DNA of 64,000 nt from Paraburkholderia sp. NMBU_R16. GTDB taxonomy: Bacteria > Pseudomonadota > Gammaproteobacteria > Burkholderiales > Burkholderiaceae. The stretch lies in NCBI RefSeq assembly GCF_013282575.1, contig NZ_JAAAYE010000001.1, positions 62,001 to 126,000 on the forward strand, in the 5' to 3' direction. The notes under the pieces are model-generated. The model worked only from the letters and a program-made list of their open reading frames with translations, was not told where the DNA came from and did not search any database. A program made the position numbers and the translations under genes. This document shows, piece by piece, positions 7,046 through 62,398 of the stretch; position 1 is the first letter of the stretch; each line of letters begins with the position of its first letter.

Positions 7046-8581
7046 GTGCTACTGCGGATCGGGAAACGAGGTGTCGCGTTCTCGTTTCTTGCATTACTGA
7101 TGATAATGACCGGTTGCGCAAGCACGCATGGCATTACACCGCAGGCGCAAGTGCCCGACGCCGCGACGCTCGACGTCGGTCCCGCCATCGATGCGGCGAA
7201 CGCGAGCGCGCAGTGGCCGAAGACCGACTGGTGGCAAGCGTTCGGCGACCCCCAGCTCGATACCCTCGTGCAGACCGCAATCGAGTCGAACCCGACGCTC
7301 GCGGCCGCTTCGGCCCGGGTGCGCGAAGCGGCATCGATCGCAGGCGTTGTCGAGGCGGCCGAAGGTCCGCAGGTCGCCGGCAGCCTCGATATCACGCGAC
7401 AGCATTGGCCGCAGAACGTCTATTACGGTCCCGGGCCGCTCGCGGGGCGCACCACCTGGAACAACACGGGTGCCTTGCACCTGTCGTACCGCCTCGATCT
7501 GTGGGGACATGAAAAGAACGCGACCGAGCAAGCGCTCGATGTCGCCCATGCACGCGCGGCCGATGCGCGTGCCGCTCAGCTCGAAATCGAGGCCAACGTC
7601 GTACGCGCTTATCTCGATTTCGCTCAGCATTACGCGTTGCTCGATATCGCGACCGATGTGCTCGCGCGCCAGCGGCAATTGGCCGACCTGGCGCGGCGGC
7701 GCCTCGCCGGCGGCATCGGCACGCAGCTCGAACTCAGTCAGGCCGAGGCGCCGCTGCCCGAGTATGAACGTACCGTCGAGGCGCGCCGGGAGGCCATCGA
7801 GCTCGATCGAAACCAGCTTGCCGCACTGCTCGGCAAAGGTCCCGGTGCCGGTGCCACCCTGGCGCGCCCCGCACTTGCACTGAACGCGCCTGCAGACCTT
7901 CCCACTCACCTGCCGGCCGAGTTGATCGGCCATCGGCCCGATGTCGTCGCCGCGCGTTGGACCGTGGCGGGCGAGGCACGCGGCATCGACGTGGCGCACG
8001 CCGCGTTCTATCCGAACATCGACTTGGTGGCAACGCTCGGCGGCTACGCGGCGGCCGGTCCGCTATTCGGTTTCCTGCGCGCTGCGAGCGGCGGCTGGAC
8101 CGGTGGACCGGCGCTGTCGCTGCCAATCTTCGACAGTGGCGCCTTGCGTGCGCGCCTCGGCGCAGCCGCCGCTAGCTATGACGTGGCGGTCGCCCGCTAC
8201 GATCAATCGATCGTCGGCGCACTCAAGGAAATCGCCGATGCAACGGTGCGCCAGCGCTCGCTGGACATCCAGCAGCACGATGCCGAGCGCGCCGCCGATG
8301 CCGCCGAGCGCAGCTATCGCCTCGCCGATCGCGGCTTCCAGCGCGGGCTCACCGATTACGTCAATGTCATCGTCGAAGAGACGCGCTGGCTCGGCGCCCA
8401 AGAACGCGTCGCCGAAATTCGTGCCGCGCGGCTCGCGGCCTATGCCACGCTGATGACCGCGCTCGGCGGCGGATTGGCGACGCCCGCCGACGGGCCGGCC
8501 GACGAGCACCTGATACCAGCGCATGGCATGCAGGCCGCGCGTGCCGGGATGCAGTCGGTCAGACGAGGGAGCGAGCGATGA
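7046..8581 (+). CDS. NodT-family outer-membrane efflux lipoprotein
   Basis: A 511-residue TolC-like outer-membrane factor. The signal peptide ends MIMTGC (lipidated Cys24). The protein carries the two OEP repeats typical of the family; ARVREAASIAGVVEAAEGPQ and LIGHRPDVVAARW are recognisable family segments. The start codon is GTG, eight bases after GAGGAGAG. It is the first gene of an operon with a FUSC permease, a DUF1656 protein and a HlyD adaptor, and overlaps the next gene by four bases (ATGA). Together they would form a channel from cytoplasm to outside, most likely for aromatic acids or related toxic compounds. Confidence 0.9.
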   Translation: MLLRIGKRGVAFSFLALLMIMTGCASTHGITPQAQVPDAATLDVGPAIDAANASAQWPKTDWWQAFGDPQLDTLVQTAIESNPTLAAASARVREAASIAGVVEAAEGPQVAGSLDITRQHWPQNVYYGPGPLAGRTTWNNTGALHLSYRLDLWGHEKNATEQALDVAHARAADARAAQLEIEANVVRAYLDFAQHYALLDIATDVLARQRQLADLARRRLAGGIGTQLELSQAEAPLPEYERTVEARREAIELDRNQLAALLGKGPGAGATLARPALALNAPADLPTHLPAELIGHRPDVVAARWTVAGEARGIDVAHAAFYPNIDLVATLGGYAAAGPLFGFLRAASGGWTGGPALSLPIFDSGALRARLGAAAASYDVAVARYDQSIVGALKEIADATVRQRSLDIQQHDAERAADAAERSYRLADRGFQRGLTDYVNVIVEETRWLGAQERVAEIRAARLAAYATLMTALGGGLATPADGPADEHLIPAHGMQAARAGMQSVRRGSER

Positions 8582-10803
8582 TGTTGTCCGACAACGCGAA
8601 CGCTATCGTCTCCCGTGCCGCGGCTGGGCGTGCTGCGTTGAGCGATTGGTGGGACACCGAGGGGCGCACCTGGATACACGTAGCGAAGGCGCTGCTGGCG
8701 GCGTTCGCCGCGCTGGCCATCGCCCTGCGGCTCGATCTGCCGCAACCCCGTACGGCGATGACCACGGTTTTCATCGTCATGCAGCCGCAAAGCGGCGCCG
8801 TGCTCGCGAAGAGCTTTTATCGGATAGGCGGCACGCTCGTCGGCCTCGTCGCCACACTTGCGCTCGTTGCGCTGTTCTCGCAGCAGCCCGAGTTGTTTCT
8901 CGGCGCGCTCGCACTGTGGACCGGCATCTGCACGGCCGGTGCGGCGCGCAACCGCAATTTTCGCTCGTACGGGTTTCTGCTCGCGGGTTATACGGCCGCG
9001 CTGATCGGCATTCCCGCCGCGCAGCATCCCGACGGCGCGTTTCTCGCCGCGCTCACGCGTGCGGCCGAGGTTTCGCTCGGCGTCGTGTGTGCCGGCTTCG
9101 TGAGCGCGCTGGTTTGGCCGCAGCACGCCAGCGACCAGATGCGCAGCACCGTTCGCGCGCGCTTTTCGAAGTTCGTCGAGTACGTCGCATCGGCGCTCGC
9201 CGGCAACATGGCACGCGAGCAGATCGAGCGTACGAACGCGCGCTTTCTGGCGGAGATCGTCGGCTTCGAGGCCATGCGCAGCATCGCCGTGTTCGAGAGC
9301 CACGATGCCCGCTTGCGTAGCGGGCGCCTCGCTCGTTTGAACCGCGAGTTCATGACGGCCTCTACTCGCTTTCACAGTCTGCATCAGTTGATGAATCGCC
9401 TGCGCGCCGCGGGCGCGCGCGAGATCGTCAACGCGCTCGAACCGTATTTCGCCGAGCTGGCACCCATGCTCTATACGCCCGGCGAGCCGGTGCTCAGGGC
9501 ATCCGATGCGACACGCTCCGCCGATAGGCTTCAGCACTTCAAGCGTGAGCTGCCAAGCCGCATGCGCGCCACGCGCGAGCGGCTGAACACGCTATCCGAT
9601 TCGGCGCTGCTCGACTTCGATACCGCTTCCGAACTGCTCTACCGCTTCGTCGACGACATGCACGCTTATGCGCAAACCTATGCGTCGCTCGCAACGGCCA
9701 GCCATGCGCGCGAACGTTCGCCGGAGCGCTACGAGCCGAAAACGAGCGCCATCGTCACCGCCATCGCCGGTGTGCGGGGCGCCATCGTCATGGCCGCGCT
9801 GAGTGCGTTCTGGCTCGCCACCGCGTGGCCGAGCGGCGCCACACTCGTTTTGAATGCTGCCGCGGTTTGCGCGCTTGCGTCGTCGTCGCCACGCCCGACC
9901 CGCATGGCGCTGCAAATGAGCATCGGAACAATGCTAGCGGCAGCGGCCGGTGCGATCGTCGTGTTCGGCATCTACCCTCGTATCGATGGGCTTGCCCTCC
10001 TCTGCGCCGTGCTGGCGCCACCGCTCGCGTTCGGTGTGTTTCTTTCCACGCGCCCCAAGCTGGCCGGCATAGGCGCGGGCTTCTGCATTTTCTTTTGCGT
10101 CCTGGCGGGGCCCGACAACGTCATGCAGTACGATCCGGCCGGATTTGCCGACAACACGCTCGCGCTGATTTTGTCGATGGTTGCCTGTGCCGCCGCGTTC
10201 GCTGTGCTGCTGCCGCCCTCCACGCCCTGGCTCATCGGCCATCTCGTCGCCGACTTGCGGCGACAGGTGGCGCTCGCCTGCCGCGCGCCGCTCGCCAGCG
10301 TACGGGCCCGCTTCGAAAGCCGCGCCCGCGATATCGCGTTCCAGGCTTACGCGGTGGCCGAACGTACGCCGGCTGCGCGGCGCGACGCGCTGGCCTGGCT
10401 CGTCGCCGTCCTCGAAGTCGGGCACGCCGTGATCGACCTGCGCGGCGAGCTCGTCGGGCTGCCGCGCGATGCGCGTTATGCGCCGACGATGCCCTGGCGG
10501 CGCAGCATCGCAGCCGCGGAGCACGAGCTTGCGGCGCTGTTCGAACGTCCGCGGGGCAGGCGTCTCGATGCAGCGCTCGCGGCGAGTGTCGACGCCATCG
10601 CCGCCACTCGGCAGGTGCTCGTCGCCTTTGCGCCGCCACGCGAAGAGCGCCATTGCCTGCAGCGCATCCTGAGCCACTTGCACTTCGTGCGCACCGCGCT
10701 GATGGATCCGCAATCGCCGCTCGCGGCGTTCGCCTCGCACGGGCAGCGTGCGAACGAAGGCGGCGATGTACCGCCCAACCATGGAGCTCGTCATGCCACG
10801 TGA
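8578..10803 (+). CDS. FUSC-family inner-membrane efflux permease (AaeB-like)
   Basis: A 741-residue protein with two blocks of membrane helices (roughly residues 30-180 and 385-545) separated and followed by soluble helical regions, the FUSC/AaeB arrangement. LDLPQPRTAMTTVFIVMQPQ near the N-terminus is characteristic of this family (p-hydroxybenzoate and fusaric acid exporters). The start overlaps the previous stop (ATGATG; either ATG could be used). It would be the inner-membrane pump of the operon. The substrate is not shown by the sequence; aromatic carboxylic acids are the usual ones. Confidence 0.88.
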   Translation: MMLSDNANAIVSRAAAGRAALSDWWDTEGRTWIHVAKALLAAFAALAIALRLDLPQPRTAMTTVFIVMQPQSGAVLAKSFYRIGGTLVGLVATLALVALFSQQPELFLGALALWTGICTAGAARNRNFRSYGFLLAGYTAALIGIPAAQHPDGAFLAALTRAAEVSLGVVCAGFVSALVWPQHASDQMRSTVRARFSKFVEYVASALAGNMAREQIERTNARFLAEIVGFEAMRSIAVFESHDARLRSGRLARLNREFMTASTRFHSLHQLMNRLRAAGAREIVNALEPYFAELAPMLYTPGEPVLRASDATRSADRLQHFKRELPSRMRATRERLNTLSDSALLDFDTASELLYRFVDDMHAYAQTYASLATASHARERSPERYEPKTSAIVTAIAGVRGAIVMAALSAFWLATAWPSGATLVLNAAAVCALASSSPRPTRMALQMSIGTMLAAAAGAIVVFGIYPRIDGLALLCAVLAPPLAFGVFLSTRPKLAGIGAGFCIFFCVLAGPDNVMQYDPAGFADNTLALILSMVACAAAFAVLLPPSTPWLIGHLVADLRRQVALACRAPLASVRARFESRARDIAFQAYAVAERTPAARRDALAWLVAVLEVGHAVIDLRGELVGLPRDARYAPTMPWRRSIAAAEHELAALFERPRGRRLDAALAASVDAIAATRQVLVAFAPPREERHCLQRILSHLHFVRTALMDPQSPLAAFASHGQRANEGGDVPPNHGARHAT

Positions 10804-10993
10804 TCTCGCCATGTTCGGCGCCTACTTACCGGCCATGGTGCCGCTTTGCGTCGGCGGTGCCGCGCTCACCTGGCTGCTCGATCGCCTGTTTGCGGCCGTG
10901 GGGCTGTATCGCTTCGTCTGGCATCCGTCGCTGGTGCGCGCGAGCCTGCTCGTGATCGTATGCGGCGCGCTCGGCCTGGCCGTATATCGTTGA
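10793..10993 (+). CDS. DUF1656 small membrane protein (AaeX-like)
   Basis: A 66-residue protein, MPRDLAMFGAYLPAMVPLCV onward, with two membrane segments and the conserved GLYRFVWHPSLVR stretch between them. This is the DUF1656/AaeX family, which almost always accompanies FUSC plus HlyD efflux genes and is thought to help assemble the pump. The ATG at 10793 is chosen because GGAG stands seven bases before it; the gene then overlaps the permease gene by 11 bases. In-frame ATGs exist further upstream inside the permease gene and are less likely. Confidence 0.85.
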   Translation: MPRDLAMFGAYLPAMVPLCVGGAALTWLLDRLFAAVGLYRFVWHPSLVRASLLVIVCGALGLAVYR

Positions 10994-11012
10994 ATCACCG
11001 TTCGAACCCATC

Positions 11013-11897
11013 ATGAACACTTCCGCAGCTCACCATCCGGCATGGCGTTATTTGATCAGCTTCATTGCGACGGCCCTGGTGTTCGTCGCCGCGCTGGCGA
11101 TCGGCCGTACACTCTGGATTCACTATATGGACGAGCCCTGGACACGCGATGGCCGCGTGCGCGCCGAGATCGTCAATGTTGCGCCCGATGTCTCCGGTGC
11201 TGTCGTCGATCTGCCTGTCGTCGATAACGGGTTCGTCAAGAAAGGCCAGGTGCTGATGCGCATCGACCCGTCGCATTATCAGGTCGCGCTCGAGCAGGCG
11301 GAAGCGGCTGTCGCCGCACGCCGGGCCGAATGGCAGATGCGCCGCGCCGACGCGCAGCGGCGCGCCGATATGGACAGCCTCGTCGTGTCGAAGGAAAGCC
11401 GCGAGAACGCTGTGCAATCGGCCTCGGCGGCCGAAGCACAGTATCGGCAGGCGCTCGCAGCGCTCGACGCGGCGAAGCTCAACCTTGCGCGCACAACCGT
11501 CGTCTCGCCTGTGGACGGGTACGTCACCAACCTGTCGCTCTATCGCGGCGACTATGCGACGGCCGGCACGCCGAAGCTTGCGATCGTCGACAGCCGCTCG
11601 TTCTGGGTCTATGGGTATTTCGAGGAAACGAAGCTGCCGCGCGTGAAGATTGGCGACAAGGCCGAGATTCGCCTGATGAGCGGCGGTACGCTGACAGGCC
11701 ATGTCGAAAGCATTTCGCGCGGCATTTACGACCGCGACAATCCGCAAAGCCGTCAGCTCGTCGCCGATGTGAATCCGACGTTCAATTGGGTGCGTTTGGC
11801 TCAGCGCGTGCCGGTGCGCATCCATATCGACGAAGTGCCTGCGGGCGTCATGCTTGCCGCCGGCACGACTTGCACGGTTGTTGTTTCGCCGAGCTGA
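11013..11897 (+). CDS. HlyD-family periplasmic adaptor (AaeA-like)
   Basis: A 294-residue membrane fusion protein. It has one N-terminal membrane anchor (about residues 12-34), the biotinyl-lipoyl-like half motif RVRAEIVNVAPDVSGAVVDL, an alpha-hairpin rich in Ala, Gln and Glu (about 80-160) and the second lipoyl half VVSPVDGYVTNLSLYRGDYA. It would bridge the FUSC permease and the NodT-type outer-membrane factor. It is the last gene of the operon, 19 bases after the DUF1656 gene, and is followed by a long hairpin shared with the convergent gene. Confidence 0.9.
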   Translation: MNTSAAHHPAWRYLISFIATALVFVAALAIGRTLWIHYMDEPWTRDGRVRAEIVNVAPDVSGAVVDLPVVDNGFVKKGQVLMRIDPSHYQVALEQAEAAVAARRAEWQMRRADAQRRADMDSLVVSKESRENAVQSASAAEAQYRQALAALDAAKLNLARTTVVSPVDGYVTNLSLYRGDYATAGTPKLAIVDSRSFWVYGYFEETKLPRVKIGDKAEIRLMSGGTLTGHVESISRGIYDRDNPQSRQLVADVNPTFNWVRLAQRVPVRIHIDEVPAGVMLAAGTTCTVVVSPS

Positions 11898-12382: not shown

Positions 12383-12706
12383 GAACACTCTCCTTTCATT
12401 GCGCCGTTCTCGCTGCGGCTTGAAGGTTGAGGTTGCGATGCGTCCGGGAAGGATCGTTCGACTGCTAAGAGCAGGTGCGGGTGGCTTTCGCGAGAACGGG
12501 CGCCCTGCCGCGCCCGGTGCGTATTCTAACGCGGGATCTTGCGATGCGCACGCCGGCGAGTCTATTCGGAACTGACTTGTTCTGGCGTACGCAGAGGAGG
12601 CGGTAAACACTTGCCGGACGGCGTACTTTTCGACTTGGCCGCGAACGATCCGGCTCGAAGCCGATCCGAACGTTCATGTCACCGATTGCGATTCCATAGC
12701 TACCGC
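12383..12706. other. 324-base intergenic region
   Basis: It separates two minus-strand genes: the end of the beta-keto acid cleavage gene at 12707 and the start of the Glyoxalase_8-like gene at 12382. It must hold the latter's promoter. No clear hexamer pair, hairpin with T-run or small gene with a ribosome site was found. Confidence 0.4.
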
Positions 12707-13636
12707 CTACCGGCTACCTACTGAAAAGTACGGTCTCGCCGAGCTATCGTTGCGCGGCAGCCCCATGATCCGGCGGGCTTCCGCAGGCGTCGCGATGTCG
12801 TAGTCCATTTCACGCAGAATCCGCACGGTGCGCTCGACGAGTTCAACGTTTCGCGCGAGTTGGCCGCGGCGATAGTAGAGATTGTCTTCGAGGCCCACGC
12901 GAATGATCTGTCCGCCGAGCAGCAGCGAGTTGATACTTGCGGGTAGTTGCGCCGGCCCGATGCCGCTCACACAGAAGATGCTGTCCTTTGGCAATAGATC
13001 GACCATGAACTGCAAGGACTTCGGGTTATAAGGCATCGCATTCTGAAAACCTCGGTGCGCATTCATCACCAGGTTGAATACATACGGTGGCTCGTCGAGC
13101 CCCATCTGGATCAAGGTGGTGGCGTCCTGAACGATATGCGTCGGGCTGAAGACTTCCCACTCTGGCTTGATCCCGCGCTTCCTCATTTCCTCGGCCAAAA
13201 ACTGGCATCGCGACGGTGAGGTATTGAGCAGGACTTCATTGCCGTCAAAGCTCGCCACGAATGTGCAGGCGTCCAGCGTGCACATCTCGGCACCGGCTTC
13301 CATGCCCTTCAGACGCTCTGCCCAGACGGTATCCCACATCCCTCCGTCGATCTGCCGCACCATGTCGCCATGAACGCCACCGCCCGTCGAATTGTTAATC
13401 ACGATGTCGCATTTGGCGCGAATCAATTCGTTGATGTTGCGATAGATGTCGGCGTTGCACGTCGCCTCGTCGTCAGGCCGCCGCGCGTGCACGGCCACGA
13501 CGCTCGCGCCGGCGTTGTAGCAGTCAAACACGTCCCGTGCGATCTCGTCCGGCTGCGTAGGCAAGTATGGGTTCTGTGACTTGAATGCCATCCCCCCGGT
13601 GGGTGCGACGAGGACGATAACCTTATTCGTAGCCAT
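12707..13636 (-). CDS. Beta-keto acid cleavage enzyme (BKACE, DUF849)
   Basis: A 309-residue TIM-barrel enzyme. Family members condense a beta-keto acid with acetyl-CoA and split it into acetoacetate and a new acyl-CoA. Landmarks are VIVLVAPTGG at the N-terminus, DIVINNSTGGG, MCTLDACTFVASFDGNEVLL and IIRVGLEDNLYYRRGQLA near the end, which holds the usual glutamate ligand. The metal motif, HxH in characterised members (VHLHVRD), reads VAVHARRPDDE here, so the first histidine is alanine. The start at ATG 13636 has GGAGA upstream. It is the last gene of a four-gene operon with two aminotransferases and a thioesterase, which suggests it cleaves a beta-keto acid made by transamination of a beta-amino acid. 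Confidence 0.85.
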   Translation of the reverse strand: MATNKVIVLVAPTGGMAFKSQNPYLPTQPDEIARDVFDCYNAGASVVAVHARRPDDEATCNADIYRNINELIRAKCDIVINNSTGGGVHGDMVRQIDGGMWDTVWAERLKGMEAGAEMCTLDACTFVASFDGNEVLLNTSPSRCQFLAEEMRKRGIKPEWEVFSPTHIVQDATTLIQMGLDEPPYVFNLVMNAHRGFQNAMPYNPKSLQFMVDLLPKDSIFCVSGIGPAQLPASINSLLLGGQIIRVGLEDNLYYRRGQLARNVELVERTVRILREMDYDIATPAEARRIMGLPRNDSSARPYFSVGSR

Positions 13637-13702
13637 TTCAGTGTCTCCGTGAAAAATTGAATCGATTCGCGCCGCCATGAGCCGCCGGTCGAAGGAGTCG
13701 TG

Positions 13703-14137
13703 CTACTGCGTGGGCGCTTCGGCCAGAAACAGCGAGAGGCGCTGGCGAAGATGATCGGGAATCGCGACCGATTCGCGCCGCTCGAGCGAGAACAGGACGA
13801 TCGTCTGCTGAACCTTCACGCGTAGCGCGTCACCGGCGAACGCTGCGAGCGAAAGCACGATGGAGCGCGTGCCGATCCGCTTCACGGTCAACTGAAATTT
13901 CAGCGTGTCACCGATTTCGCTAGGCGCGACGAAGTCCACCTCGATGCGGACCGTCGGCACACCTAGCTTCTGAATAGCGATGAAATCCGCGTAATTCACG
14001 CGCAGTCCTTCGTTGAACCAGTCCTCGATCAGCTCGTGGAACAGCACGAAGTACTGCGGGTAGAAGACGATGCCAGCCGGATCGCAATGCTGAAAGCGAA
14101 CGAGCTTTTTCGTTTCGAATGAGCCTGCAATGGTCAT
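13703..14137 (-). CDS. Hotdog-fold acyl-CoA thioesterase (4-hydroxybenzoyl-CoA type)
   Basis: A 144-residue thioesterase. VRFQHCDPAGIVFYPQYF carries the catalytic aspartate of the 4-hydroxybenzoyl-CoA thioesterase group, and VDFVAPSEIGDTLKFQLTV the second strand block. It is third in the operon, 48 bases after the class III aminotransferase and 66 bases before the BKACE gene. BKACE produces an acyl-CoA, so this enzyme probably frees the acid from it. The same pair (BKACE plus hotdog thioesterase) is known from carnitine breakdown, where the product is betainyl-CoA. Here aminotransferases replace carnitine dehydrogenase, so a different substrate is inferred. Confidence 0.82.
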   Translation of the reverse strand: MTIAGSFETKKLVRFQHCDPAGIVFYPQYFVLFHELIEDWFNEGLRVNYADFIAIQKLGVPTVRIEVDFVAPSEIGDTLKFQLTVKRIGTRSIVLSLAAFAGDALRVKVQQTIVLFSLERRESVAIPDHLRQRLSLFLAEAPTQ

Positions 14138-14185
14138 GTTGCTTTTCCCATCCGGCGCCTCGACTCGTGAAGCGCCGGTTGTCCA

Positions 14186-15583
14186 TCAGTTAAGCGCGCC
14201 TTCACGCTCGAGATCGCGTTCGAAATCGATGAGCGCTCGCCCCAGCCGTTCGACGAGATCGTCGATTTCCGGCTCCGTGATGATCAGCGGCGGCGCAATC
14301 AGCTGGATATCGCCGAACTGCCCGCGGTTGGCACGCCGGTTGTAAAGCGCGATGCCGTGCGCGAGTCCGTAATTCGTCAGACGGGCCGGCGCATTCATCG
14401 CCGGCGGCAATTGACGCCGCGTCTGCTTGTCCGCGACGAGTTCGATCGCCATCAGCAAACCCTTGCCGCGCACGTCGCCGACGAGACGGCTTATCTGCTG
14501 CAGCTCATGAAGTCGCCGCTCGAGATACTGTCCCATCCTCGCGGCGCGTTCGACGAGACCCTGTTCCACTACTTCGTCGATAACGGCTTCGGCAACCGCG
14601 CACGAGAACGGGTTCGAAAAGTAAGTGTGGCCGTGAACAAAGCCGCCTTGCGCGCCGATCGTCTCGACGATCCAGTTCGGCGCGAGCAGCGCCCCAAAAG
14701 GCGTATAGCCCGCGGCAAGACCTTTCGCCAACGTCACGATGTCCGGACGTGAACCTTCCCAATGGTGCGAGGACAGGAATGCGCCCGTGCGCCCCGCACC
14801 ACACATGATCTCGTCGTGAATGAGCAGCACGCCGTGCCGGTCGCAGATCTCGCGGACCCGCCGGTAATACGACGGAGGCGACACGAGCGCGCCACTGGAC
14901 AGGCCGCCGATCGGTTCGAGGATGAATGCGAGCACGGTGTCGGGGCCCTCCTCGACGATTCGCCGTTCGAGCGCATCTGCGCAGGCTGCGACATGCGCTT
15001 CGGCTGTCACGCCGGGCGGCAACCGGTAGGTCAGCGGCGCGGGAATCTTGGGCATCTGCCGCATCATTGGGCCGTAGATCGACTCGGTAGACGAGTCGCC
15101 CGTGACGGCCATCGCGCCCAGCGTGGAACCGTGGTAGCTCGGATCGCGGGAGATCACCTTCCAGCGAGTGGGCTGTCCACAGGCGACCGCGAACTGCCTT
15201 GCGAGTTTCAGTGCCGCCTCGATAGCCTCCGAGCCGCCCGAGACGAAGAACGCACGATCGAACCCCTCGCCAGCCAGTTCAGTGAGCTTGCCGGCCAGGC
15301 GGACGTTCTGTTCGCTCTCAAAGAAGCGCGGATACGCAAAGGTGACGTGGTGGGCTTGCTCCGATATCGCAGCAACGACGCGCGGATTGGAGTGGCCAAG
15401 GTTGCTCACCACCGCGCCCGACGTTGCGTCGAGATACCGGTTGCCGTGCTCGTCGTACAGGTGAATACCTTCGCCGCGCGCAATGCGCGGCGGTCGCGCC
15501 GCGCCCTTCGGGAGGTAGAAACTCATGACGCTTCCGCCGCGCGGCGTGTCCCCGACGAGACGCTTTCCAACCGTATCTTCCAT
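14186..15583 (-). CDS. Class III aminotransferase (PLP, aspartate-aminotransferase-fold)
   Basis: A 465-residue PLP enzyme. FFVSGGSEAIEAALKLARQF holds the cofactor phosphate-binding region, LLIHDEIMCGAGRTGAF the pyridine-nitrogen aspartate, and DIVTLAKGLAAGYTPFGALL the Schiff-base lysine. It resembles omega-amino acid:pyruvate aminotransferases of Burkholderiales, but no substrate is evident. ATG 15583 is chosen because GAGGAG lies seven bases upstream. Second gene of the operon, 51 bases after the beta-amino-acid-type aminotransferase. Two class III aminotransferases in one operon may handle opposite enantiomers, or one may recycle the amino acceptor; the sequence does not say which. Confidence 0.88.
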   Translation of the reverse strand: MEDTVGKRLVGDTPRGGSVMSFYLPKGAARPPRIARGEGIHLYDEHGNRYLDATSGAVVSNLGHSNPRVVAAISEQAHHVTFAYPRFFESEQNVRLAGKLTELAGEGFDRAFFVSGGSEAIEAALKLARQFAVACGQPTRWKVISRDPSYHGSTLGAMAVTGDSSTESIYGPMMRQMPKIPAPLTYRLPPGVTAEAHVAACADALERRIVEEGPDTVLAFILEPIGGLSSGALVSPPSYYRRVREICDRHGVLLIHDEIMCGAGRTGAFLSSHHWEGSRPDIVTLAKGLAAGYTPFGALLAPNWIVETIGAQGGFVHGHTYFSNPFSCAVAEAVIDEVVEQGLVERAARMGQYLERRLHELQQISRLVGDVRGKGLLMAIELVADKQTRRQLPPAMNAPARLTNYGLAHGIALYNRRANRGQFGDIQLIAPPLIITEPEIDDLVERLGRALIDFERDLEREGALN

Positions 15584-15634
15584 TCCAATGCTCCTCACAA
15601 AAACGCACTGCCTCGTGCGGCGAAACAATTGTCT

Positions 15635-16951
15635 TCAGGCGAGGACGCTTGCGTAGCGCTCGACAAACTCATCGAACGCCGACAACAGTCGCCCGATTTC
15701 CTTCTCGGTAATGGGCATGCTCAAAACGATAAAGCCGCGGCGCGCGAGATAGATGCCGCGTTCAAGCATGTGAAAGAAGAAGAGATCCTTGACGCTATTG
15801 CCCTCGGGTAGCAGGTCTTTGATCGATCGTATTGCGTGCCTGCCGGTCTGAAGATTCATGAGGGACCCTCTTCCGGTGAACTGAAGAGGGACATTGCGCT
15901 GCACACAAATCGCGTTCAGTTGCTCGCGCAGGCGATCGCCGCAGGCATTCATTTCCCGCGCGACGTCCGCGGTGTACAGCCTGGATAGACCTGCTGCGCC
16001 GGCCGCCATACTCAGGACGTTGTTGTTGAACGTGCCGGCATGCGGCGTGGCGCCAGGCTTGCGCGGATCGAATTGATCCATGATGGATGTCCGACCACCG
16101 AACGCACCGAAAGACATGCCGCCTCCGATGTACTTGCCGAGCGTCGTGAGGTCCGGCTCGATTCCAAACGCTTCCTGGAGCCCACCGGGTGCCAGCCGCG
16201 AAGTCATGACCTCGTCAAAAATCAGCAGCGCACCGTGCTTCGACGCAAGCGCCCGCAGCCCGGCCAGAAATTCGCGTTCACCGCAGATGCAACCGGCCGC
16301 GCCCTGCATCGGCTCGACGACGACGGCAGCGACCTCGTCGGGATGTGATTCGAAGAGGCGCTGCGCGCTCGCCAGATCGTTGTAGTGGGCGATCAACAGG
16401 TCGTGCGGGACGTTGACCGGACTGTTGCCGTTCGCGAACGTCAGCACTCCGCCGTGGTACCCGCCAGCAAAAACGATGACCTTGTCACGGCGGGTATGGA
16501 CCCGTGCAGCCGCGATCGCCATCAGATTCGCTTCGGTACCCGAGTTCGTGAACCGCACCGCGTCGACCGTTGGAAAGCGATCGCAGATCAGACGCGCAAG
16601 CTCCGACTCCAGCAGGTTATGTCCGCTCAGATTGATGCCGGTATCGAGCGCACGATCGATGGCCTGCCGGATGACGGGGTTCGAGTGCCCGTAGAGACCC
16701 GCCGTGAACTCCGCGATGAAGTCGATGTATTCGTGACCGTCCGCATCCCAGAGGCGGCAACCGTCACCGCGGGCGATGGCGAGCGGAAATGGACTGTAAA
16801 AAAGCACCGACCGCGTGTTGCCGCCAGGCATGACCTGAACCGCCCGCTCGTACTGAAGTGCGCTTCGCGGATTGCGCTCGGTGAAACGCTCGACCGCGTG
16901 ATTGATCGCCTCGGCAAGCGGGGAAAAGGCTGAAGTATCGGAGCTTTCCAT
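15635..16951 (-). CDS. Beta-amino acid aminotransferase (beta-phenylalanine type, GSAM-like fold)
   Basis: A 438-residue class III PLP enzyme, superficially like glutamate-1-semialdehyde aminomutase. It much more closely resembles, from memory, the beta-phenylalanine aminotransferase of Variovorax paradoxus: GGNTRSVLFYSPFPLAIARG, INLSGHNLLESELARLICDR, VVVEPMQGAAGCICGE and HAGTFNNNVLSMAAG all align in order. The arginine of TRSVLFY and the one in LARRGFIVLSMP correspond to the two carboxylate-binding arginines of that enzyme. The PLP lysine is in LTTLGKYIGGGMSFGAFGG. It would convert a beta-amino acid to a beta-keto acid. First gene of the operon; ATG 16969 is an alternative start. A chromosomal hemL elsewhere is expected, so a haem role is unlikely. 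Confidence 0.85.
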   Translation of the reverse strand: MESSDTSAFSPLAEAINHAVERFTERNPRSALQYERAVQVMPGGNTRSVLFYSPFPLAIARGDGCRLWDADGHEYIDFIAEFTAGLYGHSNPVIRQAIDRALDTGINLSGHNLLESELARLICDRFPTVDAVRFTNSGTEANLMAIAAARVHTRRDKVIVFAGGYHGGVLTFANGNSPVNVPHDLLIAHYNDLASAQRLFESHPDEVAAVVVEPMQGAAGCICGEREFLAGLRALASKHGALLIFDEVMTSRLAPGGLQEAFGIEPDLTTLGKYIGGGMSFGAFGGRTSIMDQFDPRKPGATPHAGTFNNNVLSMAAGAAGLSRLYTADVAREMNACGDRLREQLNAICVQRNVPLQFTGRGSLMNLQTGRHAIRSIKDLLPEGNSVKDLFFFHMLERGIYLARRGFIVLSMPITEKEIGRLLSAFDEFVERYASVLA

Positions 16952-17029
16952 CGAGATGTCCCTGTGCATGGCATCGCGTCCCTCGGACCGAACCACTACA
17001 AATCCGGCCAGTACGATGAACTACTATTC

Positions 17030-17057
17030 ATTGTACACTGCACAAGCCAAGTTGCAA
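17030..17057 (-). promoter_or_regulatory. Promoter of the beta-amino acid operon
   Basis: Read on the minus strand, TTGCAA (17052-17057) and TACAAT (17030-17035) are separated by 16 bases, a good sigma-70 match, about 80 bases upstream of the aminotransferase start. Confidence 0.6.
17031..17045. promoter_or_regulatory. Palindromic operator candidate for the TetR regulator
   Basis: TTGTACACTGCACAA is palindromic at 12 of 15 positions and covers most of the -10 element and part of the spacer of the operon promoter. It lies about 140 bases upstream of the divergent TetR gene. A TetR dimer bound here would block the promoter; this is inferred from position and symmetry. Confidence 0.5.
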
Positions 17058-17186
17058 GATTCTCTGTGTCGCCGGAGAGGACAGAGCGACGGCGAGCCGC
17101 GCGCGGCAAAAGTCGGGGGGGCGATTGTCCGGTCTACAATGGGCGCTTGTTCACCACACAATCGCGTTTTGGCAACGAACCGACAA

Positions 17187-18008
17187 ATGACGACATCAGC
17201 TCGCAAGGCGACCCTCCCGGGAAAAACGGGCACCGTCAGGAAGGGCCGCGGCAGTGGCGAAGGTATGGATCGAGCTGGTGCCGGCGGGAATTCCCCGGCA
17301 TCACGTACGCGCACCAGGAAGGACGGGACTACCGGTTCCGGGCTCAGCAAGGAAAGGATCATTGCTGCAGCGATCGAGCAGATCGACCGCAACGGGCTCA
17401 TGGGATTCAGCTTGCGCGATGTCGCGCGATCGCTTGGCGTCTATCCGTCCGCGGTGTACTGGCACGTTGCGACGCGTGACGACCTGCTCGCGTCGGTTGT
17501 CGAAGCCACAATGGCCGACGTTGCGCCCGAACCCGGCAAGACGTCGTGGCAAGACTGGCTCAGGGAGTTGTTCTCCCGGTGCCGGGAGGTGATTCGCCGA
17601 CACCCGAATGTCGCGCAGCTCCTCGGCGGACACCTCGTCGCCAACGCAAGCTTGAACCCCGGCATGATCGACAGGATTCTTACTGTGCTTGTTGCGGCCG
17701 GGTTCAAGGATGATCAGATCGTTGACATGTATAACGTGGTTATCGCAACGATGGTCGGTTTTTCGACGCTTGAATTCGCATCCATGCCCACGGACGATCC
17801 CGCGAGATGGGCAGCGCAACTGCAGGAGAAGGTGAGTTCGATCCCGGCGCTCGAGTTTCCGACGCTGGCGCGGTACCTCCCTGCGATGGCCAACAGGTCG
17901 TTTATCGTTCGCTGGCAGAACGGCACGGACGCAGCCATGGACTCCAGCTTCAGCGCATACGTCGAAACCGCTATTGCTGGCATGGAGCGGGCGTTGGCGC
18001 GCGCCTGA
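17187..18008 (+). CDS. TetR/AcrR-family transcriptional regulator
   Basis: A 273-residue repressor-type regulator. After a basic, low-complexity N-terminal tail comes the TetR helix-turn-helix (KERIIAAAIEQIDRNGLMGF, then LRDVARSLGVYPSAVYWHVA), followed by a ligand-binding helical domain of the TetR_C type (from about residue 115). The start is uncertain: ATG 17187 gives a reasonable length but lacks a strong ribosome site, and a later ATG at 17265 is possible. It is divergent from the four-gene beta-amino acid operon and is the obvious candidate to control it, presumably with a pathway intermediate as inducer. Confidence 0.82.
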   Translation: MTTSARKATLPGKTGTVRKGRGSGEGMDRAGAGGNSPASRTRTRKDGTTGSGLSKERIIAAAIEQIDRNGLMGFSLRDVARSLGVYPSAVYWHVATRDDLLASVVEATMADVAPEPGKTSWQDWLRELFSRCREVIRRHPNVAQLLGGHLVANASLNPGMIDRILTVLVAAGFKDDQIVDMYNVVIATMVGFSTLEFASMPTDDPARWAAQLQEKVSSIPALEFPTLARYLPAMANRSFIVRWQNGTDAAMDSSFSAYVETAIAGMERALARA

Positions 18009-18197: not shown

Positions 18198-19868
18198 TCA
18201 CGCGTGCAGCTTGAACTTCCCAACGAGCCGCTTGAGCGCTTTCGCCTGATCGTCGAGCGAGCGTGCAGCCGCGGTAGCCTCTTCTACGAGCGCCGCATTC
18301 TGCTGCGTACCGGCATCCATCTGCGTGACCGCACGGTTGATTTCCTCGATGCCTGAACTCTGCTCCGTGGACGCCGCGGAGATCTCGCCCATGATATCGG
18401 TGACTCGCTTGACCGCCTTCACCACCTCATCCATCGTGCGACCGGCGTCCTCCGCCAGCGTCGAACCGTTCTCCACGCGTTCGAGCGAGGTGTTGATCAG
18501 CGTCTTGATTTCCTTTGCCGCGGCGGCGCTGCGCTGCGCGAGCGAGCGCACCTCGCCCGCCACAACTGCAAACCCGCGCCCCTGTTCGCCCGCGCGCGCC
18601 GCTTCGACGGCCGCATTCAAAGCAAGGATGTTGGTCTGGAACGCGATGCCGTCGATCACCCCGATGATGTCGCCGATGTTTTTCGCGCTCGCATTGATTT
18701 CGCCCATCGTCGTGACGACACGCGAAACGACCGAACCGCACGTCGACGCGATCTCCGACGCATTGTTCGCCAGCGAACTCGCCTGCTTCGCGTTATCGGC
18801 GTTTTGGCGCACCGTCGAAGTCAGCTGCTCCATGCTCGACGCGGTGCGCTCGAGCGAGACGGCCTGCTGCTCGGTGCGCTGCGACAGATCGAGGTTGCCC
18901 ATCGAGATCTCACCGGCCGCCGATGCGATCGCCTCCGCACTCGCCGCGATTTCGCCGACCGTTCCGGCTAAACCGGTGCGCATTTCGGAAAGCGCGTAAA
19001 GCATGCTCGATGTGTCCTTTCTGCCGAGCGCGATCGGGTGCGATAGGTCGCCCGACGCAATCCGGCTCGCGATGTCCTTCGCATAGACCGGCTCGCCGCC
19101 GAGCTGGCGCGTCAAGCGCCGCACGACCCACTCGCTGACGACGATCGCCACCGCAATCAGCGCGGCCGTCATCGCTGCCATCATGACGAACGACGACTTG
19201 AAGATGAATGCCGATGCGTCGATCGTCGCTTTAGCCTGCGCGCCGCGGGCCGCGACGAGCGCGTCCACGAGCTTTTCGAGCTTGCCCGTCTCGACCAGCA
19301 GAGAAACGTCCTGCATGCCGACTTGCCAGTTCATTTGCGACAAGTCGAGCGGCTGCGCCTTCACGAGCGTGACGAAATCGCGCAGGTGGCTCGCCCACGC
19401 CGAGACGGCGGCGGCCAGCTTCGTTTGCTGATCGAGCGCTGCTTTGTCATTGACGTCGGTGTACTGTTTGAGCGTGCCGAGCTCGCCGTTGATCGCGGCA
19501 AGGCCCTTGTCGATTTCGGCTCCGAGCTCATCGCGTTCCTTGGCCGTCGTGGCGGTAAGCAGCATTTTTTGCGCACGGCTCGAACGCAGCATGTTGCCGC
19601 GCACTTCTTCCGCGGCTCGGCTCGCCACATGGCCCTGCTCGTAGATCGATCTGGACGAATCGTTCAAACGGCTGATCTGCGTGAGCGCGAATATGCCGAT
19701 CGCCAGCGTTCCGGCCAGCAATACCGCGAATGCCAGCCGCAGCGACATCTTGACCGACAGCCCATTGAGGCGCGCCTTCACGCCGGCACCACGCGACTGG
19801 CCGCCCGCCGCGGCACCCTCCGGCACAAACTCCGCCTCCGCACGCAACCTCCGTGAAACCATCTTCAT
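18198..19868 (-). CDS. Methyl-accepting chemotaxis protein
   Basis: A 556-residue chemoreceptor. It has an N-terminal cytoplasmic stretch, a membrane helix ([20 protein letters not shown]), a periplasmic four-helix-bundle sensor (about residues 60-190), a second membrane helix, HAMP ([19 protein letters not shown]) and a signalling hairpin tip with [20 protein letters not shown]. The ligand is not deducible. ATG 19868 is chosen because GGGGG stands five bases before it. It is a lone gene, far from any che cluster in the window, typical of the many scattered receptors of soil Burkholderiaceae. No C-terminal NWETF-type CheR tether is seen. Confidence 0.92.
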
Positions 19869-20291
19869 GCAACCCCCTTCTGATAAGCCCCGCCTCGTGG
19901 GCAGGTTGGACGGCAAATCCGACCGCTACCGCTGGTCAACGGCATCTTCGGCGGCCTTCTTGAGCCGGGAGATACGAGAGAAAACCCGTATCCGGCGTAC
20001 ATTTTTTGCCTCGATTTTTCGTATGCGGGAGCGGTTATACCTCGCCAAAAAGCGCCTCGATACGAAGCTTGGCAGCGCTTGTCACGTTGGCTCTGCGCCA
20101 TAAACCGGGCATTCGCGACGCCGACGCGCGACGAAAATGTCTCATGTACGACAAACAATGTCCGAGTCGTCTTTTTGAGACAAACTACACTTACGAAATC
20201 GAGGGGCACCGATTCGCTCATTGCTGAACCGCGCTCGTGCCCCAGGCCGCTCACTGAAGCGGCAAACGCTCACTCTTTCAGGATGCCTGGC
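19869..20291. other. 423-base divergent regulatory region (chemoreceptor / MFS exporter)
   Basis: No gene with a ribosome site is seen. The right half contains nested inverted repeats (20138-20182) upstream of the exporter gene. I looked for a sigma-28 type promoter in front of the chemoreceptor and found no convincing one. Confidence 0.45.
20138..20182. promoter_or_regulatory. Nested inverted repeats upstream of the MFS exporter
   Basis: TGTCTCA (20138-20144) pairs with TGAGACA (20176-20182), and inside it ACGAC (20148-20152) pairs with GTCGT (20166-20170); the two dyads share almost the same centre. The position, about 110 bases before the exporter start, fits an operator or an mRNA leader hairpin. 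Confidence 0.5.
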
Positions 20292-61048: not shown

Positions 61049-62398
61049 TCATTCGGCCGGCATCGCTTCGTAGCCGTCGGTCAACGTCCGCAAGAACGCG
61101 ATGACATCGCGAATCTCCCGCTCGTCGAGCGCCGGTTTGCCGCCGCGCCGACGATCGAAAGGGGGCTCGGTATTGATGTTGGCCCAGTACCGCTTCGGCA
61201 GATCGTCGAATTTGCCGAAGCGACCGCCAACGACCGGATAGAACCGCTCGGGATGCGTGTCGCGCTCGGCATAAAAGCGCAAGACCTCCTCGAGCGACCG
61301 ATAGATGCCGTTATGAAAAAAGGTCTGCCGCGTGGCGACGTTGCGCAGCGTCGGCGTGCGAAACAGTCCACAGAATTCGTCGCGCCCGGCCAAGTCCGTG
61401 CGCCAAGGCCCGCATGCGCCCAGATCGAAGAACCGAGGGTCGCGATTCGCCGCGAGTGCGCGGTTGCGCGGCACGCCGAGTGCGATCAGGCCAAAGTCGG
61501 TAAAGAGGGGCGGCGAGCCATCTTTGGCTCGCTCGCTCGGATGGCAGCTAGCGCAGTTGCCTTTGCGTTCGTCGTTGAATAGTTGCAGGCCGCGCAACTC
61601 CGCCTCGCTCAACGCGGCACGGCCGGCAAGATAGGCGTCGTACTTGCTCGTGTAGGGAGAGAACACCGACGGCTTTTCCTCGAATACGGCGAGCGCGTCC
61701 AACACCGCATCGAACGTAGCCTGATCGTCGTCGAGCACGTGCGCGCCGAATGCCGCGCGAAATGTCCGGGCGTAAGGTGCCGCACGCACGGCCGCGGCGA
61801 CATGTGCCGGCGCGCTGCCCATCTCGAATGGCGATAGCAGCGGAACGGCAGCCTGCGCGCGATGGGTGTCGACACGGCCATCCCATGTCAAACCGCCCGT
61901 CGGGCCCGCGTCGACGCTTTCGTCGCCTTCGTCATCGGAGTCGTGATAGTGCTCGCTGAAAGCGGGTACCCATTGCGAGTACATCAATGTCGGCACCGCG
62001 CGATAGCCGGGTTGGCGCAGATCCGTCCCGCCGAGTTGAACAGATAAAGCATTGGGCGGCCCGAACGCGTGCGCGGGGCTATGGCACGACGCGCAGGCGA
62101 GCTTGCCCGAGCCCGATAGCGACGGGTCGAAAAAAAGCTTCTCGCCCAGTGCCGTCTTCATGCGAACCGACGCATACACGTTCGCACGCGTCGCACCGCT
62201 TCCGATGCCGATGCCGAGTTCAGCCGCTTCGCCCGGCCGCGGCGCCTGCGCGGGGCGCGTACAGGCGGCAAGCGACGCGATCGCGCAAACCGCGCTTGCA
62301 ATGGCCACGGCGCTCCGCAGGCGCCGCTCCATGCCGGACACGCGTTCGCCGGCCACACGCGTCACCGCGCTCGCGCACGCGCGTGCGTTGAGCTCCAC
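61049..62398 (-). CDS. Di-haem cytochrome c peroxidase-like lipoprotein
   Basis: A 449-residue exported protein of the bacterial di-haem cytochrome c peroxidase/MauG family. Two haem-binding motifs are present, LACASCHSPAH and NCASCHPSERA, with axial Met/His candidates in MGSAPAHV and RQTFFHNGIY. The lipoprotein signal ends SLAAC. The start is uncertain: GTG 62398 has GGGAGG at six bases, whereas ATG 62332 gives a standard 23-residue lipoprotein signal (MERRLRSAVAIASAVCAIAS). It probably reduces peroxide or oxidises another periplasmic substrate at the membrane surface. It is divergent from the AcpA-type phosphoesterase gene. The central acidic run HYHDSDDEGDESVDAG is unusual. Confidence 0.85.
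   Translation of the reverse strand: MELNARACASAVTRVAGERVSGMERRLRSAVAIASAVCAIASLAACTRPAQAPRPGEAAELGIGIGSGATRANVYASVRMKTALGEKLFFDPSLSGSGKLACASCHSPAHAFGPPNALSVQLGGTDLRQPGYRAVPTLMYSQWVPAFSEHYHDSDDEGDESVDAGPTGGLTWDGRVDTHRAQAAVPLLSPFEMGSAPAHVAAAVRAAPYARTFRAAFGAHVLDDDQATFDAVLDALAVFEEKPSVFSPYTSKYDAYLAGRAALSEAELRGLQLFNDERKGNCASCHPSERAKDGSPPLFTDFGLIALGVPRNRALAANRDPRFFDLGACGPWRTDLAGRDEFCGLFRTPTLRNVATRQTFFHNGIYRSLEEVLRFYAERDTHPERFYPVVGGRFGKFDDLPKRYWANINTEPPFDRRRGGKPALDEREIRDVIAFLRTLTDGYEAMPAE

Follow-up and report, generated by a model that had tools for sequence, protein, structure and literature searches.

Organization of the gene cluster

The window analysed here is a 64,000-nt stretch of DNA from Paraburkholderia sp. 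NMBU_R16 (positions 62,001 to 126,000 of NZ_JAAAYE010000001.1, assembly GCF_013282575.1). At 12707-18008 it carries four minus-strand genes and a divergent TetR-family gene, which probably form a catabolic operon under TetR control. Its substrates would be aromatic beta-amino acids, beta-phenylalanine being the likeliest. The four genes are transcribed in the order BAT, AT2, TE, KCE, the last being a member of the beta-keto acid cleavage enzyme (BKACE) family; in coordinate order the open reading frames (ORFs) are as follows.

12707..13678, minus strand: KCE, BKACE-family enzyme, proposed aroylacetate:acetyl-CoA cleavage enzyme (ORF of 323 aa, likely ATG start at 13636)
13703..14137, minus strand: TE, 4HBT-like hotdog thioesterase, proposed aroyl-CoA hydrolase (144 aa, 4HBT_2 match)
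14186..15628, minus strand: AT2, second class III aminotransferase (480 aa, Aminotran_3 match)
15635..16996, minus strand: BAT, beta-phenylalanine-type aminotransferase (453 aa, closeness to 4AO9)
16902..18008, plus strand: divergent TetR-family regulator ORF (368 aa, TetR_N and TetR_C_1 matches)

Profile searches placed KCE in the BKACE family PF05853 (260.2 bits, cut-off 24.8), TE in 4HBT_2 (53.1 bits, cut-off 25.5) and both AT2 and BAT in Aminotran_3 (325.4 and 208 bits, respectively, cut-off 30.5); the divergent ORF matched TetR_N (31.3 bits, cut-off 24) and TetR_C_1 (42.8 bits, cut-off 21). The ORFs and family matches confirm the four genes and their divergent TetR gene as a first-pass annotation, made from the sequence, had described them. 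The gaps of 48-66 bases given there fit downstream start codons, the KCE start at 13636 leaving 66 bases and TE and AT2 being 48 bases apart. The cluster is not a chance assembly, since Paraburkholderia franconis has the same gene order at high identity.

BAT resembles beta-phenylalanine aminotransferases

Among solved structures, BAT comes closest to the beta-phenylalanine aminotransferase 4AO9 (E 4.9e-155), sharing 237 of 425 aligned positions with it (55.8% identity); we take the source of 4AO9 to be Variovorax paradoxus, with which PMC9850050 is consistent. The motif of beta-phenylalanine aminotransferases comprises R41, V43, E75 and Y76 in the numbering of the Variovorax enzyme VpAT (PMC9850050). 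R62, V64, E96, F97 and K288 of BAT correspond to R41, V43, E75, Y76 and the catalytic K267, so that BAT and 4AO9 have all of these in common except Tyr76, which is Phe in BAT. Among the 25 of 27 BAT hits (from overlapping loci) that show all the positions, this residue is F in 21 and Y in 4. The identity and the largely kept motif speak for the beta-phenylalanine type that had been assigned to BAT in the first-pass annotation, which thus stays a putative assignment. In relatives, an amidase adjoins BAT (L034 5456-7105) and an N,N-dimethylformamidase-like (DMFA-like) protein adjoins AT2 (L037 835-3117).

Conservation of the cluster

The survey covered 299 genomes of the family, the own genome included. 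Relatives of KCE (E≤1e-60) occur in 42 of them, those of BAT (E≤1e-100) in nine and those of AT2 (E≤1e-130) in three. In five of the seven genomes that have both BAT and KCE (the own genome, G269, G248, G264 and G068) the two lie within 10 kb of each other, where ~0.02 would be expected at random (random-placement figures here and below ignore kinship, assume a flat 8 Mb genome and use start-to-start distances). The KCE of G068 is only 66% identical to that of the window. BAT and KCE stand on different contigs in G286 and G261, and in G078 and G200 BAT passes these thresholds but no KCE does.

The gene orders come from scanning named genomes, with the best 80 of 325 loci used. P. franconis (L033) has TetR and BAT-AT2-TE-KCE in the exact order of the window, with 94% identity for TetR, 90% for BAT, 90% for AT2, 86% for TE (which has a frame change) and 95% for KCE; this four-gene order is thus found in the window and P. 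franconis. P. tropica has TetR and porin-MFS-BAT-amidase-TE-KCE (MFS, major facilitator superfamily transporter), and just before its TE (L034 7172-7315) lies a decayed stretch of an AT2 end (61%, two stops), which hints that this species, too, formerly had BAT, AT2, TE and KCE side by side. P. aspalathi carries TetR and porin-MFS-BAT-TE-KCE, G248 TetR and BAT-TE-KCE, and Cupriavidus basilensis amidase-BAT-KCE with no TE seen by KCE. AT2 accompanies TE-KCE in P. guartelaensis (DMFA-AT2-MFS-porin-TE-KCE), with no BAT nearby, and P. fungorum possesses both kinds of module together with a carnitine-dehydrogenase-like gene. On a P. graminis plasmid KCE lies ~5-6 kb from the BAT of a porin-MFS-BAT-amidase set, with no annotated TE. 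None of BAT, AT2 and TE is near the KCE of Paraburkholderia sp. BCC1884, no KCE is annotated near the BAT of a Skermanella plasmid, and no thioesterase appears in the annotated flanks of the KCE relatives on the MBES04 plasmid and a Rhizorhabdus plasmid.

A quick tree was built from 94 KCE rows, namely the 80 named loci, the window and 13 more, leaving out second copies from the same genome and the short loci L001-L032. In it the window falls in a nine-row clade with an SH-aLRT (Shimodaira-Hasegawa-like approximate likelihood ratio test) value of 97. BAT is nearby in seven of its rows, AT2 in four, either aminotransferase in eight and TE in seven; BAT is nearby in only two of the 85 rows outside. 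Beyond the clade and its four-row sister clade, 46 of the 81 remaining rows have a dehydrogenase nearby. The first-pass annotation had looked to conservation of the four genes together. The complete set turned out to be rare, and what recurs is TE and KCE accompanied by BAT, by AT2 or by both aminotransferases.

KCE is a BKACE-family protein with an altered metal site

Besides its profile match, KCE has the TIM-barrel fold of the solved BKACE members, with 25-32% identity to them in structural alignments; the model was the best of five from an AlphaFold job with 24 rows (mean pLDDT, the predicted local distance difference test score, of 62.6 to 85.1). The zinc site of BKACEs is formed by an HxH motif and a Glu. 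In KCE the first His is replaced by Ala62, while His64 and Glu264 are kept. Because of Ala62 we file KCE as a family member by sequence and fold and not as a proven zinc BKACE. A His near residue 207-208, which might conceivably substitute for the lost zinc ligand, is invariant in the 24 rows of alignment A1 but Asp in the Sphingobium homologue. In a separate locus, L096 of Burkholderia sp. OK233, KCE has a stop codon at the Glu264 position.

The missing ligand suggests an alternative, namely that the KCE subfamily does not cleave its keto acid and catalyzes some other reaction on it. In 124 of 126 KCE hits, a set with many duplicate or closely related sequences, Ala stands for the first His, and HxH is present in all five solved relatives listed. 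However, the second His and the S, T, E, R, E and D positions of the active site are kept in 122 of the 126 hits, and the gene contexts described below call for the conversion of an aroylacetate to an aroate. We therefore regard a non-cleaving KCE as very unlikely.

Glu14 of the lysine-pathway enzyme Kce holds the amino group of the substrate (PMC10470551). Compared with the BKACE family (Kce, 2Y7D; BKACE15, 8RIP), KCE differs both in the Ala for the first zinc His and in a Met (Met30) for this Glu14, the latter speaking for the route proposed here. The lysine-fermentation Kce was rejected as an identity for the protein, as the equivalog NF052387 scored 237.7 bits where 382 are required and Glu14 is absent. 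With its altered metal site, KCE points to a branch of the BKACEs that may be dedicated to aroylacetates and common to benzoate-linked, acetophenone and beta-amino acid routes.

Gene contexts point to aroylacetates as substrates of KCE

Past KCE, on the other strand, P. aspalathi carries genes for BenD, BenC, BenA, CatA and a BenM-like regulator; BenD, BenC and CatA exceed their curated cut-offs, BenA (734.5 bits, cut-off 781) and the BenM-like protein remain below theirs. CatA is encoded ~4 kb beyond KCE in P. franconis, at the contig end. Of the 42 KCE genomes, 18 have BenA (E≤1e-150), which lies within 15 kb of KCE in seven, against 0.083 expected at random. These seven are G269, of the P. 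aspalathi type, and six genomes with an MFS-KCE clade 63-65% identical to the window KCE. The MFS-KCE clusters near ben-cat (L144, L145, L146, L147, L149 and L150) are a possible entry of beta-hydroxy aryl acids to benzoate.

Two plasmids, Sphingomonas bisphenolicum pBAR1 and one of Sphingobium yanoikuyae (L159, L156), carry a 60% identical KCE with a thioesterase, next to genes for a carotenoid oxygenase, an aldehyde dehydrogenase and a biotin carboxylase; pobA is also on pBAR1. This context would fit the carboxylation of 4-hydroxyacetophenone to an aroylacetate, possibly in an acetophenone side-chain route. Taken together, the contexts point to an aroylacetate as the substrate of KCE.

The window genome itself encodes homologues of BenD, BenC, BenA and CatA with 82-85% identity (contig C102). 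No BoxB was found in it, and without boxB the thioesterase is needed. In line with the benzoate route, C. basilensis, with no TE seen beside its KCE, carries BoxB and lacks BenA at E≤1e-150.

TE and the nature of the aromatic acid

TE combines the hotdog profile with a CDPAGIVxYP motif, including its Asp, as 4HBT-type aroyl-CoA thioesterases do. The motif is common to TE and the 4-hydroxybenzoyl-CoA thioesterase 1bvq (E 2.9e-5), and TE has a CDPAGIV-YPQY motif in common with the thioesterase of the Sphingobium pair. TE adjoins KCE in seven of the nine rows of the KCE clade, with an unbroken frame in six (the window, L034, L035, L036, L037 and L132).

The distant resemblance to 4-hydroxybenzoyl-CoA thioesterase accords with another substrate class: the same route could serve hydroxylated aromatic beta-amino acids of the beta-tyrosine type, ending in 4-hydroxybenzoate that PobA would take over. 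Two PobA proteins of the window genome exceed the cut-off, the related TE-KCE pair on pBAR1 has pobA nearby, and VceA/VceB of Sphingobium lignivorans SYK-6 convert hydroxyphenyl-beta-ketopropionates to hydroxybenzoates (PMC9618137). On the other hand, it is ben/cat genes that adjoin the P. aspalathi cluster and CatA that of P. franconis (linkage to pob was looked at in the fetched flanks), and G248 and C. basilensis have BAT-KCE and no PobA at E≤1e-100. We consider hydroxylated substrates possible, if somewhat unlikely, and beta-phenylalanine remains the substrate that we favour.

Bacterial carnitine degradation employs a BKACE with a thioesterase, a pair like that of TE and KCE, and the TE-KCE module of P. 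fungorum adjoins a dehydrogenase whose best match is L-carnitine dehydrogenase, below the cut-off (352 vs 414 bits). Other BKACE types serve deoxyribonate (PMC6365646). That the cluster degrades carnitine or another aliphatic beta-keto acid is nevertheless highly improbable. The window genome has a second BKACE (L154), with HxH kept, that adjoins an L-carnitine dehydrogenase (623.8 bits, cut-off 414), and the operon of the window has neither a dehydrogenase nor a lactonase. On account of this separate locus and the lack of a carnitine dehydrogenase in the operon, carnitine was rejected as the main explanation; a deoxyribonate BKACE was rejected as there is no short-chain dehydrogenase/reductase or lactonase within the operon.

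AT2 as a probable second entry

The assignment of AT2 to the class III aminotransferases held at family level; it has 69 NCBIfam matches, and the top 25 all score under the cut-off. AT2 is likely another feeder of KCE, a second transaminase into the same keto acid pool, and would then probably handle the other enantiomer or a substituted substrate. As a rather doubtful extension, the operon might take both enantiomers of an aromatic beta-amino acid, BAT the (S) form and AT2 the (R) or an amide-derived form. Both would then supply a BKACE specific for aroylacetates, its metal site rebuilt, and carbon would be recovered along with nitrogen.

The TetR regulator and its candidate operators

The domain matches of the TetR ORF begin near residue 150 of 368, so the gene probably starts a good way into the ORF. 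A TetR homologue is divergent from the BAT operon in L033, L034, L036, L132 and L125. Three ATTGT-N7-ACAAT-like sites lie between BAT and the TetR domain, and a fourth is inside the TetR gene.

17124..17140, plus strand: candidate TetR operator, exact ATTGT-N7-ACAAT
17030..17046, plus strand: candidate second operator, one mismatch (exact at the equivalent place in L033 and L125)
17146..17162, plus strand: weaker operator-like match, one mismatch, which may be chance

With up to one mismatch the motif occurs four times in the 64 kb, against 0.51 expected, and none of 100 shuffles reached four. The exact motif is present in 11 of 154 loci, from six genomes, all 11 with BAT; as it was derived by aligning the window with L033 and L125, only L036/L131/L115, L039 and L118/L126 are independent. 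The BAT loci L034, L035, L071, L128-L130 and L132 (the last also in the alignment) have no exact site. TetR may control the operon through these candidate sites.

Just beyond TetR, at 18198-19916 of the window, lies a chemoreceptor gene (4HB_MCP, MCPsignal), and on the other side an efflux-like set adjoins the operon at 7046-11897 (outer membrane factor, FUSC-like and HlyD-like, judged by eye from the ORFs).

Proposed route and its weighing

Transamination of beta-phenylalanine has been described; the resulting keto acid is reported to decay to acetophenone, and the further metabolism of the deaminated compound is called uncertain in a passage of PMC6150868. (S)-beta-phenylalanine serves P. 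phytofirmans PsJN and strain BS115 as a nitrogen source, with acetophenone as a product (PMC6150868). We propose that BAT, judged by its close homology, would take the amino group from the (S)-beta-amino acid and pass it on to a keto acid, leaving an aroylacetate (benzoylacetate). Ahead of decarboxylation to the ketone, KCE would cleave the aroylacetate with acetyl-CoA to aroyl-CoA and acetoacetate, as its family and contexts suggest, and TE would hydrolyze aroyl-CoA to the free aromatic acid (benzoate). The ben/cat genes elsewhere in the genome could complete benzoate breakdown, including ring cleavage, and AT2 would probably feed the same keto acid pool. The TE-KCE pair would thereby prevent the loss of carbon as acetophenone. 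All of these reactions, as well as the substrate and the regulation, we infer from gene families, residues and linkage. The first-pass annotation, which had put forward the same core from aminotransferase through BKACE to thioesterase (benzoylacetate, benzoyl-CoA, benzoate), was essentially right overall; its interpretation is partly supported, the genomic support coming from gene contexts.

Several observations weigh against this reading. The metal site of KCE deviates, and its linkage to benzoate genes is uneven: ben/cat genes are in the fetched flank of only two of the nine clade rows, P. franconis has only CatA near its cluster and a BenA-like gene (62%) on another contig, the ben genes of the window genome are on a different contig from the operon, and P. 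fungorum, with TE-containing modules, has no benA at E≤1e-150. The KCE clade of the six other genomes with BenA near KCE is more distant and tied to a dehydrogenase (five of six) instead of BAT. BoxB is present in nine of nine other genomes of one search, where TE would be less needed, and in 13 of 21 genomes of another. The P. franconis TE (L033 7510-7943) has a frame shift near residue 117 of 144, either real or a draft error, and TE has only 27% identity with the thioesterase in the Sphingobium pair. The sister clade has MFS-TE-KCE and no aminotransferase, and the clade member L038 has KCE with neither aminotransferase nor TE nearby. Judging from the amidase and DMFA-like neighbours in relatives, an amide or an N-acyl compound may be the substrate in nature. 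In BS115 acetophenone drops again once the (S) form is consumed (PMC6150868), hence other fates of the carbon exist.

A same-genus genome, L125, also weighs here: it has open frames for BAT and AT2 and only short remnants of TE and KCE (12590-12850), with no close BenA and with BoxB present. Together with the use of (S)-beta-phenylalanine for nitrogen by PsJN and BS115, it speaks for an operon that mainly recovers nitrogen, the aminotransferases deaminating and TE-KCE clearing the keto acid with no gain of carbon. The retention of TE beside KCE in most of the clade, usually in an intact frame, argues against such a role, as does the probable capacity of the window genome to use the product acids as carbon; we hold it to be unlikely.

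If the catabolic route for beta-phenylalanine is correct, the operon offers the enzymes missing after transamination and tells what becomes of the carbon in a degradation of which chiefly the first step is known. It predicts which strains lose the ketone and which retain the carbon, and soil Paraburkholderia as well as E. coli would lend themselves to testing it.

Comparison with known systems

Unlike the solved beta-transaminases 4AO9 and 2YKU (the latter presumably from Mesorhizobium), BAT is encoded together with the downstream enzymes in one operon; neither PMC6150868 nor PMC9850050 uses the words "gene cluster" or "operon". The first-pass annotation had named carnitine degradation as the nearest described route. 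That comparison does not hold, as carnitine degradation uses a dehydrogenase and in this genome its BKACE and L-carnitine dehydrogenase stand apart from the operon. The closest known route is that of VceA/VceB in SYK-6. The proposed route is like it in leading from an aroylacetate to a free aromatic acid (vanilloyl acetic acid to vanillate in SYK-6) and differs in the origin of the aroylacetate, which comes from lignin dimers or acetovanillone in SYK-6 and would come from a beta-amino acid by transamination here. Another likeness is offered by strain GD02, which we take to be a Rhodococcus. Carboxylated acetophenones are proposed to be converted to vanillate or 4-hydroxybenzoate in its Hpe pathway (HpeE/HpeF; PMC9618137). 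VceB is a vanilloyl-CoA/syringoyl-CoA thioesterase (PMC11837543, PMC9618137), and a passage of PMC11837543 places one more, unidentified enzyme in the SYK-6 step. The open-licence literature searched, partly on BKACE, zinc and lignin routes, yielded no report of a beta-aryl beta-amino acid being degraded by a whole route of this kind. Within that literature the cluster is an unreported combination of known enzyme families, a variant of the aroylacetate route and not a new kind of system.

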